DNA from: Bacillota bacterium | Lineage (GTDB): Bacteria > Bacillota > Sulfobacillia > JACIYH01 | Reading direction: 5' to 3' | Length of the DNA: 61,393 nucleotides | NCBI GenBank assembly: GCA_030019365.1 | Contig: JASEFA010000013.1 | Span: forward strand, 1-61,393 | Part shown: positions 2,054 through 58,560 of the stretch, one piece after another | Numbering within the stretch: the first letter of the stretch is position 1 | How the letters are laid out: the number at the start of each line of letters is the position of its first letter | The notes under the pieces: generated by a model | What the model was told of the DNA's origin: nothing | The model's input: only the letters and a program-made list of their open reading frames with translations | The model's database searches: none | Translations under genes and position numbers: made by a program

Positions 2054-3469
2054 TCACCGCCGGTCAGCACTGGCTCTGCGGCCCGGCGCTCCCCCGGCAT
2101 CCAGTTCTCTTACGGGCATCTTAAGGCCGAAGGGAAGAGTAGCAAGCAGGAGGAGCCCGATGGCCACGAAGGCGAGGGGGTGCGCGCCTTCTCTGGCGAC
2201 GAGCGGGAACGCCGCGCCGAGGGCCACCGGTCCCACCACTCCCCCCATGACGTTGCTGAGTTGCCGCAGCCCGCTGATGGCGCCAGCCTTGGAGACGTGG
2301 GCCTCCAGGCCCGCCGCCGCCAGCGGGACACTGGTCATCGTCGCCCCGACCCGGCTCACCAGCAACAAGAGCCCGAGCAGTGCCAGAGACGTGGGCCCCG
2401 CACCCAGTCCCAGGAGCGCGAGCGAGGTCAACGACATCCCCGCCACCACCATCACCCTGTACCCCACCTTCGGTAGCGTCCGGCCGACGAGGGGTGCGAC
2501 AATGGCTTGGGCCAGCGCTGCCGGCGTAATCAGAGCCCCGGTCTGGGCAGGAGAGGCCTGAATGGCTGGGTGCGTTTGGACGTAGACCGAAAGGAAGAGA
2601 AGAGTGCTGTACATGGTGAGTCCCTGAAGGAAAGACAGGCTGAGCACGACGCCCATTCCCTGGGTTCTCAGAAGCCCCCATTCGAGAAAAGGAGTTGCGG
2701 ACCTGTTCTCGATCATCGGCAGGGCCAGGCCCAGGGTGGCTCCCGCGACAAGGAGAGCGACGACCGGCGGGGAGGCGAATCCTGCCTGTCGGCTGAGAGT
2801 CAGCGCCACCATGACTGTGACCACGAGCCCGGAGAAGACAACGACCCCCGCCGCGTCCAGTATCGTCTTCGGCCCACCCCCGACCCGGGCCTGTCCCGGC
2901 TCGCGCCAGAAGCCGACGGTCAGGAAGAAGATGGCCAGCCCCAAAGCGGCGTTGAGGAGGAAAATGAGCTGCCAGGGGTAATACGACGCGAGGAGTCCCC
3001 CCAGGTTCGGGCCCGCCACGGCCGCGACGGGACTGACCATCCCGGCCATGCCAATGGTTTGTGTCCGCTGCCGGCCTTTCAACTGGGAGCTTATCAGTTT
3101 AAGGCCCACCGGCGCGAAGGTCCCCCCGCCGAAACCCTGGAGGGCCCGGAGCCCGAGGAGAAGACCCATCGACCTGGGAAGCACCCAGCCGACCAGACCC
3201 CCCAGCAAGGAGCCGACGGTGAAGACACCCATCCCGAGCAGGAAAGCCTTTCGAGGACCCCACTCATCGGCCATCTTGCCGCCGATGGGCATGGCCACAG
3301 CGGCGGCCAGGAGGGAGGCGGTCGTGAGCCAGGGCAGCCAGTCAACAGCCCACGGAAAGGTCCGGCCGATAGTGGGCAGGGCCGTGACCACCACCGTCAT
3401 CTCCATAGTCCCAAACAGCGTGGCCAGGATCACCAGGACGACAGGTACAGTAGCAGTGCCTCGTCTCAT
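2054..3469 (-). CDS. MFS drug/metabolite exporter, DHA2-like (14-TM type)
   Basis: 471 residues of almost continuous hydrophobic segments, consistent with a 14-helix H+-antiporter. The N-terminus matches DHA2/EmrB-type carriers (TVVVTALPTIGRTF, then the loop GGKMADEWGPRKAF). The motif GPNLGGLLASYYPWQLIFLLN corresponds to antiporter motif C in helix 5. Its ATG overlaps the stop of the ArsD-like gene (ATGA), so it is translationally coupled to the ArsA/ArsD-like pair. That context suggests export of a metal or metalloid conjugate or a drug, but substrate cannot be read from the sequence. Confidence 0.85.
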   Translation of the reverse strand: MRRGTATVPVVLVILATLFGTMEMTVVVTALPTIGRTFPWAVDWLPWLTTASLLAAAVAMPIGGKMADEWGPRKAFLLGMGVFTVGSLLGGLVGWVLPRSMGLLLGLRALQGFGGGTFAPVGLKLISSQLKGRQRTQTIGMAGMVSPVAAVAGPNLGGLLASYYPWQLIFLLNAALGLAIFFLTVGFWREPGQARVGGGPKTILDAAGVVVFSGLVVTVMVALTLSRQAGFASPPVVALLVAGATLGLALPMIENRSATPFLEWGLLRTQGMGVVLSLSFLQGLTMYSTLLFLSVYVQTHPAIQASPAQTGALITPAALAQAIVAPLVGRTLPKVGYRVMVVAGMSLTSLALLGLGAGPTSLALLGLLLLVSRVGATMTSVPLAAAGLEAHVSKAGAISGLRQLSNVMGGVVGPVALGAAFPLVAREGAHPLAFVAIGLLLLATLPFGLKMPVRELDAGGAPGRRASADRR

Positions 3470-3930
3470 TGGCCGTCCTCCTGTCGGTCGGGCCCGGCTG
3501 ACGCCACGGCCGCGCTGAGTTCCTGCAGGGAGGGAACGTCGCTCACGAACGCGGCCCGCCCGTTCACGGCAATGACCGGGGGTATCATGAAAAACACAAT
3601 GCTAATCTGCCTTAGCCGGGCCATAACCGCAGGCCCTGGGGCGAGTCCTGCCCGCAGGGCGTCGAGCTCGTGGCGCAACCTGGCCCACTCCTGCACGTTC
3701 CGCGCAAACGGCAGCTCGTATCCGGCCGCTTCCAGCGCCTCGGCCATGCCCACGTAGTAGGTGAGTCGCTCGGGTCGGGTAGCGGCGGGAACGACTTCAA
3801 TCTTCACCTTGTCGCCCAGCCGCACCTTCGCCTCGCGGAGGAGCCGGGCCACGGCGACGTTCTTGCCCGTGAAGTCCGGAACGCAGCAGTCGAGGCGCGG
3901 GAAGACGGTAACCCTGACCGCATCGCTCAC
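3466..3930 (-). CDS. ArsD-like thioredoxin-fold protein with vicinal cysteines
   Basis: 154 residues starting at GTG 3930. An N-terminal beta strand is followed by Cys15-Cys16 (FPRLDCCVPDFTGKNVAV), and a central segment IPPVIAVNGRAAF resembles the cis-proline strand of a thioredoxin fold. ArsD metallochaperones have the same arrangement (a strand, a CC pair, 'PxxxVxG') and pass As(III) to ArsA. This protein is longer than classical ArsD (~120 aa). The GTG overlaps the frameshift-corrected stop of the ArsA-like gene, and its own stop overlaps the MFS start. The functional assignment is inferred from context plus the CC motif; a general redox role is possible. Confidence 0.65.
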   Translation of the reverse strand: MSDAVRVTVFPRLDCCVPDFTGKNVAVARLLREAKVRLGDKVKIEVVPAATRPERLTYYVGMAEALEAAGYELPFARNVQEWARLRHELDALRAGLAPGPAVMARLRQISIVFFMIPPVIAVNGRAAFVSDVPSLQELSAAVASAGPDRQEDGQ

Positions 3931-4858
3931 TGGGCTTCACCCCCGTAGAGGACCTCCGCCACTGCCGCAGCAGGGCAAGGCCCCTCACCTCACCGGGTAG
4001 CAGTGGAACTTCGGCGATGATCTTCCCGGCAAAGGTTTCCCGGACTCGTGCCAGGTGGCGTTGCTGCATCTCGTACCGCCGCCAGAAGTAAGGCGTATCA
4101 GCCCGGCGGACCTCCACCTCGGGTAGAACCTCGTTGACAATCAGGGCCGGGACGGCGATGTCGTGCTGGGCGAGTTCCGCGAGCGCCCGCTCCGTCTCGG
4201 CGATGGGGAGAGTTTCGGGCCAAAGCACGTAGAGAAAGGCCGTGCGCTCGGAGGATGTGATGAGTTTCATCGTCTCCCGAGTTCTCTGCTCCTCCCGGGC
4301 GATGAGGGCCAGGCGCGCCTCGCTGCCAGCTGGCGCGAATTCGGCGAATGGGTCACCTCCACCGTAACGTCTGGCCATGGTGAAGGGCAGGGTTATCTCC
4401 ACCAGGGCCCGGCCACCGGGTGCGGTGTCGAAGACTATGGTGTCGTAGTCCCGTGCCCTCTCCGTGAAGAGTTCCATGAGCTTATAGAAACTCGCCATCT
4501 CCATGGCACATGGCGAGATCTCTTTGCTCATGAGCTCCATGAGCTCGGACGGTCCGAAGACGTCCTGAACCATCGCGGCCAGGTGGAGCCAGTTCTCCCT
4601 CACGAGCGCCCGCGGGTCAGTCTCTGTGACGGATAGCCCAGGCACTCCGGCAATCTGCCGGACCCGGTGGCCGATGTCGGTCGCGAAGATGTCGCTCAGA
4701 CTCCGCTGCAGGTCTGTAGAAACGAGCAGGACACGACGGTCCGCATCTGCGAGACGGACCGCTGTCGCAGCGGAAATGGTGCTCTTGCCCACACCCCCCT
4801 TTCCCCCAACGAACAGGAACCTGGTCTCGGACTTGGGCTCAACTACCCTCCACAGCAC
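3927..4858 (-). CDS. ArsA/GET3-type ATPase, single-domain, with apparent frameshift near the 3' end
   Basis: GTG start at 4858 behind GGGGGGAGGTC. P-loop GGKGGVGKS at residues 18-26; switch motif DTAPGGRALVEI corresponds to the DTAPTGHTLR of the ArsA/GET3 family. There is one ATPase domain of ~310 residues, as in dimeric single-domain ArsA homologues. The natural frame runs past the usual C-terminus to 3797. One base off, from about 3975, the other frame reads AVAEVLYGGEAQ and stops at 3927-3929. That ending fits the family and gives a 4-bp GTGA overlap with the next gene. Either a one-base sequencing/assembly error or a real mutation is likely. It would power metalloid extrusion together with the ArsD-like and membrane partners. 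Confidence 0.75.
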
Positions 4859-4897
4859 GAGATAGACCTCCCCCCGTCAGCTGTCCACGGCGTTCAG

Positions 4898-4926
4898 TGT
4901 AGACCCTTCCGTTACGTGAGAGTCAA
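4898..4926 (-). promoter_or_regulatory. predicted sigma-A promoter of the ArsA-like operon
   Basis: On the minus strand TTGACT (4921-4926) is followed after 17 bases by TCTACA (4898-4903); TACACT two bases further on is an alternative -10. It lies about 40 bases upstream of the GTG start. Confidence 0.5.
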
Positions 4927-4964
4927 GCGCCGGCCGCTGCCAATCCTCTTCGGGCCGGACGCTG

Positions 4965-5084
4965 TCAGGGCGCATCAAACTCGGTGGGGCTGACCGCATC
5001 GAGCATCAACCAGACCAGGTCACCTGCACGGAGCCAGTCTCGTTGGCTAGACGGCACTATGTACGCCTGCTCATCTGCTGTGCG
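4965..5084 (-). mobile_element. N-terminal relic of an IS1182-type transposase
   Basis: The frame encodes AYIVPSSQRDWLRAGDLVWL followed by MLDAV, then a stop at 4965-4967. This resembles the N-terminus of IS1182/DUF772 transposases (LPPSLRDWLPEDHLVWFILDAV). No catalytic domain follows, and no terminal inverted repeats are evident. It sits in the divergent intergenic region between the arsA-like and arsR genes. Confidence 0.5.
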
Positions 5085-5160
5085 AGGAGGAGACACAGGG
5101 ACCGAGGAAGGTTGTCCTGGACATCGCAATACTGGGCGGGGCCCCCCTGGGCGCAGCCCC

Positions 5161-5189
5161 TTGACACGCGACAAGGGGCGTGGTATGCT
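5161..5189 (+). promoter_or_regulatory. consensus sigma-A promoter of the CC-protein/arsR/arsP operon
   Basis: TTGACA at 5161-5166 and TATGCT at 5184-5189 are separated by exactly 17 bases. The predicted start (~5196) falls inside an inverted repeat (5193-5216), and a leader of about 190 bases precedes the first gene at 5384. Confidence 0.8.
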
Positions 5190-5192
5190 GAC

Positions 5193-5216
5193 ATCGTGTT
5201 AGTGCGATATCACGAT
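5193..5216 (+). promoter_or_regulatory. inverted repeat at the transcription start, candidate ArsR operator
   Basis: ATCGTG (5193-5198) is repeated inverted as CACGAT (5211-5216) with a 12-base AT-richer spacer. It covers the predicted start point of the 5161 promoter, the usual place for an ArsR-family operator. The ArsR encoded at 5630 is the obvious candidate ligand; this is inference. Confidence 0.5.
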
Positions 5217-5383
5217 TCCCACACGCCCGGAGCGCCGAAGGAATACCGCCCCAGCCACCGGCGGCTCCAGGGAGGCGATCTCCGAAAGTCTGTCCTACTG
5301 ACTTCGCCCCGAGCGGATCACCTGGATGTCCTGGAAAGGGACCCATCGGAGGGCAGCAGTGTACGGGAAGGGGGGTGTTTTGG

Positions 5384-5587
5384 ATGGTGACCAAGAGGAG
5401 GGGAATTGTCGGCCTGCTCAAGAGGTCGCTGGGCATCTCCACCCGCGATTGCTGCGGCGGCGATCCGAAGGCGCCGCGGGTTGGCGACCCCGACCACGGT
5501 ACGGGTCCGTGCTGCGACGAGCCTGCCGACCCGAAGACGGTCAGGCCGGGCCGCGAAAAGGCGGACGACGGTTCGGACCGCTGCTGA
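5384..5587 (+). CDS. 67-residue protein with two vicinal cysteine pairs
   Basis: ATG 5384 follows GGAAGGGGGG at good spacing. The product has a basic N-terminus (MVTKRRGIVGLLKRSLG) that could form an amphipathic helix, then a polar, Gly/Pro/Asp-rich body with Cys23-Cys24 (RDCCGGD), Cys43-Cys44 (GPCCDEP) and a terminal Cys67. No known domain is recognised. It is the first gene after the promoter at 5161 and lies 42 bases before arsR. CC pairs bind trivalent arsenic or antimony in other proteins of this type of operon, so a metalloid-binding or delivery role is a reasonable inference, not shown. Confidence 0.65.
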   Translation: MVTKRRGIVGLLKRSLGISTRDCCGGDPKAPRVGDPDHGTGPCCDEPADPKTVRPGREKADDGSDRC

Positions 5588-5629
5588 GAGCTCTTACATA
5601 GAAGTGGCTCTACTCAGGGGGGACGCCTC

Positions 5630-5989
5630 TTGGCAGTTGACCGGCAGGACAGCGCAGGTCTGTGCAAGGTTTTCGCGGCGCTGGCCAATCCCCATCGCCT
5701 GCGGATCTACGAATCCTTGTTCTCGGGCTGCCTTTCGACTTGCTGCGACCGCATCGAGAGATGCGAGCCGGCGATGGCCCAAACCGACGTTGTGCGGCTG
5801 CTGGGCCTTGCGCAGTCAACTATCTCCCACTATCTGAAGGTGCTCGAGGACGCCGGGCTGGTCAGAACAGAAAGGCGAGGACCGTGGACCTGCTACTTCC
5901 CCAACTACAGCCAGGCAGCCAAGATCGGGGCGTTCTTCAGCGAGCTCGCCAGCCGTGAGGCGCAGCCGACCAGTCCCGAGACACCGTAG
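5630..5989 (+). CDS. arsR: ArsR/SmtB-family metalloid-responsive repressor
   Basis: 119 residues, TTG start behind GGGGGGA. Winged helix: LCKVFAALANPHRLRIYESL, then the recognition region VVRLLGLAQSTISHYLKVLE, then a wing ending in GPWTCYF. Cysteines 34, 38, 39 and 45 (SGCLSTCCDRIERCEP) form an insertion just before the HTH rather than the classical ELCVCDL in the recognition helix. That makes a non-classical trivalent metalloid site likely. It should repress the operon from the inverted repeat at 5193. The arsP-like permease follows directly. Confidence 0.85.
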   Translation: MAVDRQDSAGLCKVFAALANPHRLRIYESLFSGCLSTCCDRIERCEPAMAQTDVVRLLGLAQSTISHYLKVLEDAGLVRTERRGPWTCYFPNYSQAAKIGAFFSELASREAQPTSPETP

Positions 5990-6054
5990 GAGTTCTTTTT
6001 TTGGCTATCCGTATCGGGGTATCGAAATATTGGAGTACGGGGAGGCTCCCGACC

Positions 6055-6987
6055 ATGGGTAACTGGCTCGAACAGACGGGCCACGCGCTGGCCGTCACCT
6101 TCTTGCACAACTGGCCCATCTTGCTTGCGGGCACGGTCATCGCCGCAGCCACGCAGGTCTACATCAGCCAGGACAGGCTCACCGCCTTTCTCAAGAAGAA
6201 CTCCCGCCGTTCCATTGTCCTGGCCGTTGGCGCGGCGGTCCTGACTCCGCTCTGCTCGTGTGGCACGATGGCCGTCATCTTAGCCATGCTGGCGTCGGTG
6301 GTTCCCTGGGGGCCGATTGTGGCCTTCATCGTGGCTTCCCCGCTGACGTCGCCGGCGGAGTTCTTCTATCTCGCCGGTTTTCTGGGTTGGAAGTTCGCCG
6401 GGTTCCACCTTCTTGCGTCCACAGCGGTCGGCCTGGCAGCCGGGGCGATCGCCGACCGCCTGGATCGCGCGGGTTGGTTGGCCGGGCAGGCCCGGTATCA
6501 GGCGGGACCTGAGAGCCACCCGGGCGGGGGTGAGGTGGCGGCGACCGGGGCCAGCACGCCTGCCGGCGGACTCCGGCCCGGGATCCTCTTGCGCGAGATT
6601 GTGTTGACGGCCTACCGGCTTGTCCCGCGCTGGGTGGCCTTCGCCGCCATCGGCTACGGCGTCCTCTACTTGATGCCGCCCGGTCTTACCGAGAACCTCA
6701 TGGGGAACCGCCACGCCTGGTCGGTGCCGGCGGCCGCTCTCCTGGGCCTTCCTCTTTACATCAACACCGACACCGCAGTCCCACTGCTCAAGTCCCTCGT
6801 GGACGCCGGCATGAGCCAAGGAGCTGCCATGGCCTTCTTCATCACCGGCCCGGCCACGAGCGTAGGGGCACTGGCCGGGCTGATGACCGTTGCCCGCAGT
6901 CGCGTCATCATCCTGGTCCTGGTCATCATCCTCGCCGGCGCGATCCTCGCCGGCCTGTCGTTCGAAGCAGTTAGCGCCTTATTCTAG
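6055..6987 (+). CDS. arsP: ArsP/DUF318-type permease
   Basis: 310 residues from ATG 6055 (GGGGAGG ten bases upstream); the frame is open from a TTG at 6001. About eight to ten hydrophobic segments. It carries both hallmark repeats of the family: TPLCSCGTMAVILAML in the first half and PLYINTDTAVPLLKSLVDAG with FFITGPATS in the second. ArsP members export trivalent organoarsenicals; related permeases act with ArsR/ArsA on inorganic arsenite. The TPLCSCG cysteine pair is present. A Gly/Ala-rich cytoplasmic loop joins the halves. It is co-transcribed with arsR and the CC protein. Confidence 0.85.
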   Translation: MGNWLEQTGHALAVTFLHNWPILLAGTVIAAATQVYISQDRLTAFLKKNSRRSIVLAVGAAVLTPLCSCGTMAVILAMLASVVPWGPIVAFIVASPLTSPAEFFYLAGFLGWKFAGFHLLASTAVGLAAGAIADRLDRAGWLAGQARYQAGPESHPGGGEVAATGASTPAGGLRPGILLREIVLTAYRLVPRWVAFAAIGYGVLYLMPPGLTENLMGNRHAWSVPAAALLGLPLYINTDTAVPLLKSLVDAGMSQGAAMAFFITGPATSVGALAGLMTVARSRVIILVLVIILAGAILAGLSFEAVSALF

Positions 6988-56379: not shown

Positions 56380-58560
56380 ATGAGCGACGCCGACACCCGA
56401 GGAAACCTGGATGCCTTCTTCGCGCCCCGCACGGTGGCGGTGGTGGGGGCCTCACGCGACCCCGCCAAAATCGGGCATCTGGTGCTGAAGTACCTCCTGG
56501 AGAGCGACGCCCGCGTCTACCCGGTCAACCCGTCCGCCGGGGAGATCCTGGGCCGGCCCTGTTACCCGGACCTGGCCTCCATCCCGGAGGACGTCGACCT
56601 GGCGGTGCTGGCCGTACCCGCACCGGCCACCGTGGAGATGGTCCGGCAGTGCGTGGAGAAGGGCGTGCGCGCCATCATCGGCCAGGCCTCCGGCTTCGGA
56701 GAAACCGGGGAAGAGGGCAGACGCCTCGAAGAACAGATCAAGGGGATTCTAAGCGCCGTGCCCGCGGAGAGGCGGCCCCGCTTCCTGGGACCGAACACCC
56801 TGGGGGTATATGTGCCCAGGCGACGCCTTGACACCACCTTTACCCTGCGGGAGCGCAGCCCCCGGCCCGGACCGGGCGACATCGCCTTCATCTCCCAGAG
56901 CGGCGCCACCGCCGTATGCATCATGGAGGCGGCCGCTTCCCTGGGGGTAGGGCTCTCCGCGTTCGCCGGCATCGGCAACAAGCTGGATGTGGACGAAAAC
57001 GAGTTGCTCGACTACTTCGCCGAAGACCCTCATACCCGCGCCATCGCCTTCTACCTGGAGAGCTTCCGGGACGGGCGCGGCTTCCTGGAGAGGTGCCGCC
57101 GCATCACCCCCCACACGCCGGTGGTGGTGCTCAAGACGGGCCGCTCGGCGGCGGGGGCGCGGGCCGCCGCCCTGCACACGGGATCCCTAGTGGGCTCCGA
57201 CCGGGTGGTGGAGGGGGCGCTGCGCCAGGTGGGTGCCTTCCGGGCGTACGACGAGGAGGAACTCGTGGACATGGCCCGGGCCCTGGGCCACGGCCGTCCC
57301 CTCCCCGGCAAGAGGGTGGCGGTGCTCACCACCGCCGGCGGCCTGGGCGTGATCGCCACCGACCTCTTGGAATCCCGCGAGCGGGGGGCAGGCCTGGAAC
57401 TGGCCACCCTGTCCGAGCAGGGCCGGGGACGCCTGCGCTCGGCGCTGGTCCCGTTCGCTGCCGTGGAGAACCCCGTCGACCTCACCGCAAACAGCAGCAA
57501 CGAGCATTACGCCGCCAGCCTGGAGGTCCTCGAAGCGGAAGCCGGCGTAGACGCCGTCCTGTGCGTGATGCAGTTCCAGAGTCCCTTTGTCGACGACCGC
57601 CTGGCAGGGCTCATCATGGACCGCTTCCACCACGGACCCAAACCCATGGTGGTGGTGACCATCGGGGGCGAGCTCTCCCAGCGCGGCCTGCGCCAGGTGG
57701 TGGGGGCGGGCGTCCCCGCCTACCCCTCCCTGCGGCGGGCCGTGCGGGCCCTGGCCGCCCTCTATGAGCGTGGCCTTTACCTCTCCCGTCAGCGCCCCGG
57801 CCCCGAAGCGCCCGCCGCCACCGCCGCCGGGCATCCGTCCCCCCTGGCATGCGCGGGGCAGGCGGCGGACGACCCACGGAAGATGGTGCGGCCCGGGGTC
57901 CCCCTGGCCGAGCACCAGGTCAAAGACCTTCTCGCCACCTACGGCATCCCGGTGCCGCCACGGCTTGTGCTGCAGCCAGGGGATGCATCGCGGCCCGGGA
58001 ATGGATCGGGGCGTGGGGGCGCGTTGCCACCTGGGAACCTCCCCTTCCCCTATCCCGTGGTGGTGAAGACTTCCGCCCCCGACATCCTCCACAAGACCGA
58101 GCTGGGGGGCGTGCGTCTGGGCATCCGCGACCGGGACGAGTTGGACGAGGCCCTCGCCGCCATGGGCGCACGGTTCCCGGGCAAGACCCTCGTGGTGGAA
58201 GCCCAGGAGCCCCCCGGCGTGGAGGCCATCGTGGGCTTCATCCACGATGCCACTTTCGGCCCCTCCCTCATGGTAGGGTTGGGCGGCATCTTCACCGAGT
58301 TGTACCAGGACGTGGCCTTCCGGGTGGCCCCCATCACCGCAGCTGACGCCCGCGACATGATCCAGCAACTGCGCGGGGGTCACCTCTTCGACGGCTTCCG
58401 CGGCATCAGGGCCGGCCGGGAAGCGCTGGTCTCCGTGCTGATGGGGATGTCGCGCCTGGCCGAAGACCTGGGCGACCACATCGAGCAGATGGACCTCAAC
58501 CCCGTGATCATCTACCCGGACCGGGCCGTGGTCGTGGACGCCAAGCTCCGCGTTCGCTGA
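56380..58560 (+). CDS. ADP-forming acyl-CoA synthetase (fused alpha-beta)
   Basis: 726 residues from ATG 56380 (GAGGAGG upstream). Alpha part: CoA-binding domain (AVVGASRDPAKIGHLVLKYL), ligase domain with FISQSGATAVCIMEAAAS and the phosphorylated His in ALHTGSLVGSDRVVEGALRQ. A Pro/Ala/Gly-rich linker (~470-505) leads to the beta ATP-grasp part (YPVVVKTSAPDILHKTELGG, MVGLGGIFTELYQDVAFRVA, EQMDLNPVIIYPD). It turns aryl-acetyl-CoA plus ADP and phosphate into the acid, CoA and ATP. It forms an energy-conserving unit with IorAB. The 3' end is duplicated at 59725. Confidence 0.93.
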   Translation: MSDADTRGNLDAFFAPRTVAVVGASRDPAKIGHLVLKYLLESDARVYPVNPSAGEILGRPCYPDLASIPEDVDLAVLAVPAPATVEMVRQCVEKGVRAIIGQASGFGETGEEGRRLEEQIKGILSAVPAERRPRFLGPNTLGVYVPRRRLDTTFTLRERSPRPGPGDIAFISQSGATAVCIMEAAASLGVGLSAFAGIGNKLDVDENELLDYFAEDPHTRAIAFYLESFRDGRGFLERCRRITPHTPVVVLKTGRSAAGARAAALHTGSLVGSDRVVEGALRQVGAFRAYDEEELVDMARALGHGRPLPGKRVAVLTTAGGLGVIATDLLESRERGAGLELATLSEQGRGRLRSALVPFAAVENPVDLTANSSNEHYAASLEVLEAEAGVDAVLCVMQFQSPFVDDRLAGLIMDRFHHGPKPMVVVTIGGELSQRGLRQVVGAGVPAYPSLRRAVRALAALYERGLYLSRQRPGPEAPAATAAGHPSPLACAGQAADDPRKMVRPGVPLAEHQVKDLLATYGIPVPPRLVLQPGDASRPGNGSGRGGALPPGNLPFPYPVVVKTSAPDILHKTELGGVRLGIRDRDELDEALAAMGARFPGKTLVVEAQEPPGVEAIVGFIHDATFGPSLMVGLGGIFTELYQDVAFRVAPITAADARDMIQQLRGGHLFDGFRGIRAGREALVSVLMGMSRLAEDLGDHIEQMDLNPVIIYPDRAVVVDAKLRVR

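Follow-up and report, generated by a model that had tools for sequence, protein, structure and literature searches.

Small proteins with vicinal cysteine (CC) pairs recur beside the genes of ArsP-family permeases, and a 67-residue protein with two such pairs leads a predicted arsenic-type operon in the window (the whole 61,393-nucleotide stretch analyzed). The locus could be a metalloid-detoxification module in which the small protein is a candidate dithiol buffer or carrier that works close to the membrane for ArsP and ArsA; this reading is held at about even confidence.

The small open reading frame (ORF, Table 1) encodes the predicted protein MVTKRRGIVGLLKRSLGISTRDCCGGDPKAPRVGDPDHGTGPCCDEPADPKTVRPGREKADDGSDRC, in which the length, the two CC pairs and the terminal cysteine are as described in the earlier note. 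The N-terminus is basic and hydrophobic (KRRGIVGLLKRSLG), the CC pairs lie in the contexts CCGGDPKAP and CCDEPADPK, and the tail is net acidic. The protein has no match in Pfam or NCBIfam, and its structure model (pLDDT 51, no helix of four or more residues, no confident fold) is uninformative.

On the plus strand, the genes are arranged in the order small protein, ArsR, ArsP, and the three would be co-transcribed. Assignment to an arsenic-type operon, proposed earlier, is supported by the Pfam matches of ArsR, ArsP_1 and ArsA. The repressor scores above the cutoffs of HTH_5 (35.3 bits, cutoff 22) and HTH_metalloreg (60.7 bits, cutoff 55), and six homologues all retain its Cys 38-39 and Cys 88. 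It carries the CC pair claimed for it but is encoded by the gene next to the small ORF, not two positions on. The permease contains a CSCG motif (PLCSCG), which fits C(S/T)C.

The divergent side also encodes an MFS transporter and a MerR-type regulator. For the second protein of the divergent unit the CC pair was confirmed, while the description "ArsD-like" found no support: the ArsD models of Pfam and NCBIfam do not match it. Its model is thioredoxin-like (pLDDT 70; best PDB match E 0.0075, TM 0.35), with ArsD only at rank 49 among its structure matches, so that neither family models nor structure search support its identification as ArsD. On the minus strand, the ORF of ArsA shares about 130 bases (3797-3930) with that of this protein.

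Table 1. Features of the arsenic-type locus (positions in the window).
Feature	Position	Strand	Remarks
CC (15-16) protein	3469..3930	-	thioredoxin-like model; second in divergent unit, behind ArsA
Single-domain ArsA/Get3-type ATPase	3797..4858	-	PF02374, 208.8 bits; divergent unit
Perfect 8-bp inverted repeat, GCCCCTTG-8-CAAGGGGC	5156..5179		overlaps -35 hexamer; operator candidate
Sigma-70-type promoter, TTGACA-17-TATGCT	5161..5189	+	TG before second hexamer
9-bp inverted repeat, one mismatch, ATCGTGTTA-6-TATCACGAT	5193..5216		over expected transcription start; ArsR operator candidate
5' leader	5196..5383	+	no significant fold, no Rfam match
Small double-CC ORF	5384..5587	+	ATG start; 67 aa; Cys 23, 24, 43, 44, 67
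ArsR/SmtB repressor	5630..5989	+	TTG start; CC 38-39
ArsP-family permease	6055..6987	+	PF03773, 106.6 bits (cutoff 32.3)

ArsP-family permeases have small CC proteins of 42-83 aa as neighbours in Bacillota, Arthrobacter and the archaeon Halobacterium. Where the records are annotated, they are named "hypothetical protein" (for example, WP_002509686.1 of Staphylococcus equorum and WP_158295129.1 of Halobacterium). Five of the Bacillota proteins have no usable match in Pfam or NCBIfam, and two more have none in Pfam. In loci of ArsP genes that resemble the one in the window, MKEKEPKKGIFSFFNRSKSGCCDMKIVEIKEETAKKGCCDLKILPAEKGGSK is encoded adjacent to the permease, with three relatives in its class. 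On Staphylococcus plasmids, MGIKDALKKLKPQEQSCCSVEIEEKTDKKDENNEKKENGNKNCC follows arsR and the permease gene, opposite a divergent arsD-arsA pair, and the arrangement is similar in further loci. The small CC gene of Arthrobacter is located after the permease gene. On a Halobacterium plasmid, MSILDRLLGGESNDDESCCDMQIEEVDSDENEADAPDERADRTED comes first, followed by arsR and the permease, with arsD-arsA nearby; this is the gene order of the window. The small genes thus flank ArsP on either side, and the regulators are ArsR, MarR, PadR or none. Since both the position and the type of regulator vary, the ArsP permease is the constant partner. One CC pair is universal in these proteins and the second is present in about half of them.

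The association was also recovered by sequence search. A profile was built from 11 small CC proteins, the window protein being left out, and was run on 398 sampled genomes of the phylum. It matched 28 places at E <= 0.0034 (3 seeds and 25 new). An ArsP-profile match lies within flanks of about 1.5 kb in 22 of the 25 new places (one of them weaker and on the opposite strand), a count based on a home-made ArsP profile, the seeds of the small-protein profile having themselves been found via ArsP. The link between small CC proteins and ArsP is considered real because ArsP played no part in the sequence search. Small CC proteins are few in the top-scoring PF03773 loci, and the association is therefore limited to certain ArsP subfamilies. 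In the genome of the window itself, the match C4:38199-38363 (MPDLPGKSKGNQGLWRRLLGGGGSCCCGVRIVEEPEEAPKEQKDSG...), a canonical small CC protein, adjoins an ArsP, in an island that also encodes a CC-bearing PadR, a thioredoxin, an SBF/ACR3-type pump, ArsR and a CcdA-like protein (assigned by eye). Among 154 genomes of the class, convincing matches were found only in the genome of the window, with a profile that included the window protein, whose own match is not independent.

Seven profile matches are longer proteins, in which the small CC domain continues into a thioredoxin-like domain (L173-L175, L178-L181). Both of the fusion proteins tested match DUF2703 (PF10865), and several of the fusions are encoded directly after an ArsP gene. 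In Rhodococcus, a gene cluster induced by arsenic includes the DUF2703 family (PMC6514093).

Other CC-bearing proteins are encoded in these loci. MarR- and PadR-type regulators beside the ArsP genes also have a CC pair (L041-L044, L046, L047, L152, L210:5345-5809), which thus occurs in three regulator families in the ArsP context. A second conserved small protein of 82 aa, starting with MSSCC.P.AP.IY.LNVGG and without a Pfam match, is encoded between ArsP and the small CC gene (L047:2337-2585, L150:1691-1939, L151:1687-1935). L210:3631-4137 joins a similar sequence to Thioredoxin_3.

The window protein shares with the recurring proteins its size, the basic hydrophobic N-terminus, the position of the first CC pair, the acidic tail, and an operon with an ArsP-family permease, often with ArsR or ArsA; one or two CC pairs occur in both. 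A loose architecture of about 42-83 aa with a basic hydrophobic start followed by CC is found in 24 of 29 members and in the window protein, and in few background ORFs. However, the window protein lacks the CCxxxI motif, and in its operon arsR lies between the small gene and arsP. The blind profile run on the 398 genomes did not recover it (E > 0.5). Against the 29-member profile it scores 4.6 bits. Shuffles do as well in 43 of 5000 cases when composition is kept and in 344 of 5000 when the cysteines are fixed. Core members score at least 19.8 bits when left out, except for L044 (three CC, -2.8 bits), counted as a member only because it is adjacent to ArsP. Judged by sequence, the window protein would be either an analogue or a very divergent member of the group, and it plausibly works like the group. 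A role in metalloid handling, as proposed in the earlier note, gains indirect support from the recurrence of small CC proteins next to ArsP permeases, and the failure of the profile to recognize the window protein counts against it.

Several known systems are comparable. ArsD (PF06953) is likewise small, with vicinal cysteine pairs and an arsA-containing locus, but the 67-aa protein has neither an ArsD match nor a confidently predicted fold. The DUF2703 thioredoxin fold is joined in several profile matches to the small CC domain of the recurring group; the window protein has no such domain. SaoC (NF040734), a Cys-Cys-COOH (seleno)protein, has a terminal cysteine motif and an organometal context, and its system includes the ArsP-like transporter SaoE. 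The window protein differs in having no NCBIfam match and a single terminal cysteine.

The small protein could serve a thiophilic metal other than arsenic (Cu, Zn, Cd or Hg), with its ArsP closer in role to the Cu/Zn exporter SO_0444 or to SaoE. The permease of the window indeed matches SaoE (73.5 bits) and SO_0444 (71.4 bits), and the model match identifies its ArsR only generically as a metalloregulator. These scores, however, are far under the cutoffs of 325 and 300 bits, respectively, ArsA adjoins the operon, and at several loci the recurring small CC proteins accompany arsD-arsA or an ACR3-type pump. A metal other than arsenic is considered unlikely.

In the earlier note, a lack of homologues anywhere was to count against the proposal. 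For the exact 67-aa protein none has been found so far: searches of its own genome, 100 relatives and a plasmid collection returned only noise. The loci of the closest ArsR homologues in the class (45-60% identity) have no small CC gene, the closest of all (60%, L033) included, and ArsR, searched against genome contigs, matched a single locus that was distant and uninformative. The lack of an orthologue, and of such an ORF beside the ArsR relatives, would fit an ORF that arose by chance in GC-rich DNA, within a long 5' leader ahead of arsR. The codon score is within the range of real genes and is equalled by 157 of 1025 out-of-frame segments (15%); codon usage is compatible with a gene but is not decisive. 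Two CC pairs, however, occur in only about 0.5% of comparable ORFs: in 2 of the window's 318 ORFs with lengths of 40-115 aa, the 67-aa ORF itself counted, and in 6 of 1139 ORFs in other GC-rich loci. GC content at third codon positions is high (0.85), as it is in genuine genes, the ATG follows a purine-rich stretch, and Halobacterium has a small CC gene in the same slot. The ORF is probably translated, and its being a product of chance is rather improbable.

The region upstream agrees with the near-perfect promoter, operator-like repeat and leader of about 190 bases described earlier. Ten of the 12 hexamer positions of the promoter match, the spacer is 17 nt, two dyads are present, and the leader up to the ATG is about 185 nt long. 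The promoter is the sole promoter-like site in 4850-6100 (1.25 kb), where shuffles give 0.3. The number of dyads in 5145-5224 is equalled by 3 of 1000 mononucleotide shuffles, and the dyad at 5193-5216 could serve as the operator of ArsR. The ATCGTG dyad occurs once more, at 58228, within a coding ORF; this copy was dismissed as chance. An attenuator in the leader was rejected as well, with neither a terminator nor a significant fold (z +1.5 relative to shuffles).

A regulatory role is another reading. The small protein could assist ArsR as a dithiol co-sensor, could act as its anti-repressor, or could be a translated leader controlling arsR expression, as it is the first cistron, has the same frame as arsR and stops 42 nt short of that gene. 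The ordinary fold of the leader speaks against this, as do the small CC genes elsewhere, with their varying side of ArsP and their varying or missing regulators, and such a role is quite doubtful.

The 67-aa ORF ends in TGC TGA, and the next in-frame stop is that of arsR. The genome of the window probably uses selenocysteine, because it encodes both tRNA-Sec (75.1 bits, anticodon TCA; C3:328593-328685) and SelA (471.7 bits; C8:51534-52631). Reading of this TGA as selenocysteine would fuse the CC protein to ArsR through a Cys-Sec pair of the kind known in metal-handling selenoproteins, e.g., SaoC (PMC13188914), but it is only a long shot because the hairpin after the UGA is weak and ordinary (z -0.16 relative to shuffles, loop just 8 nt from the UGA); in addition, arsR has its own start preceded by a G-rich stretch, and the two ORFs had a one-in-three chance of sharing a frame. 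In-frame TGA codons elsewhere in this genome are worth a look.

Vicinal thiols bind As(III) and Sb(III) in ArsD and ArsR proteins. In the metalloid-detoxification module considered here, the promoter at 5161-5189 would drive synthesis of the small protein, ArsR and the ArsP permease, and ArsR would probably repress it at the dyads over the promoter. A soft thiophilic metalloid, e.g., As(III), Sb(III) or an organoarsenical, could be the inducer. Upon induction the small protein would be the first product. Judging from its composition, the basic, hydrophobic N-terminus could hold it near the membrane; such contact is a guess, since the hydrophobic moments of the N-termini show no excess over shuffles. 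The two vicinal dithiols may hold the metalloid and pass it to the cysteine motif of ArsP, which ArsA possibly energizes. Alternatively, the small protein could simply buffer the metalloid. With its flexible dithiol chain it would do the job for which ArsD uses a fold.

ArsP is an exporter of methylarsenite and trivalent roxarsone (review: PMC6205960), and ArsA has been proposed to energize it (PMC2963123). In the open literature, no described carrier bringing these thiol-reactive organoarsenical substrates to ArsP was found, and nothing was found on small CC proteins of this kind. Tentatively, and at slightly less than even confidence, undescribed but widespread short flexible dithiol proteins, with one or two CC pairs after an N-terminus that is basic, hydrophobic and possibly membrane-binding, and sometimes fused to DUF2703, may carry or buffer metalloids for the ArsP-family permeases of bacteria and archaea. 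The window protein would be either a member that evolves fast or an equivalent of independent origin. As a target, the recurring group is preferable to the copy in the window because its sequence is conserved and it is present on Staphylococcus plasmids. A small dithiol protein recurring beside ArsP would be the obvious candidate for the carrier, and one that is easily testable.
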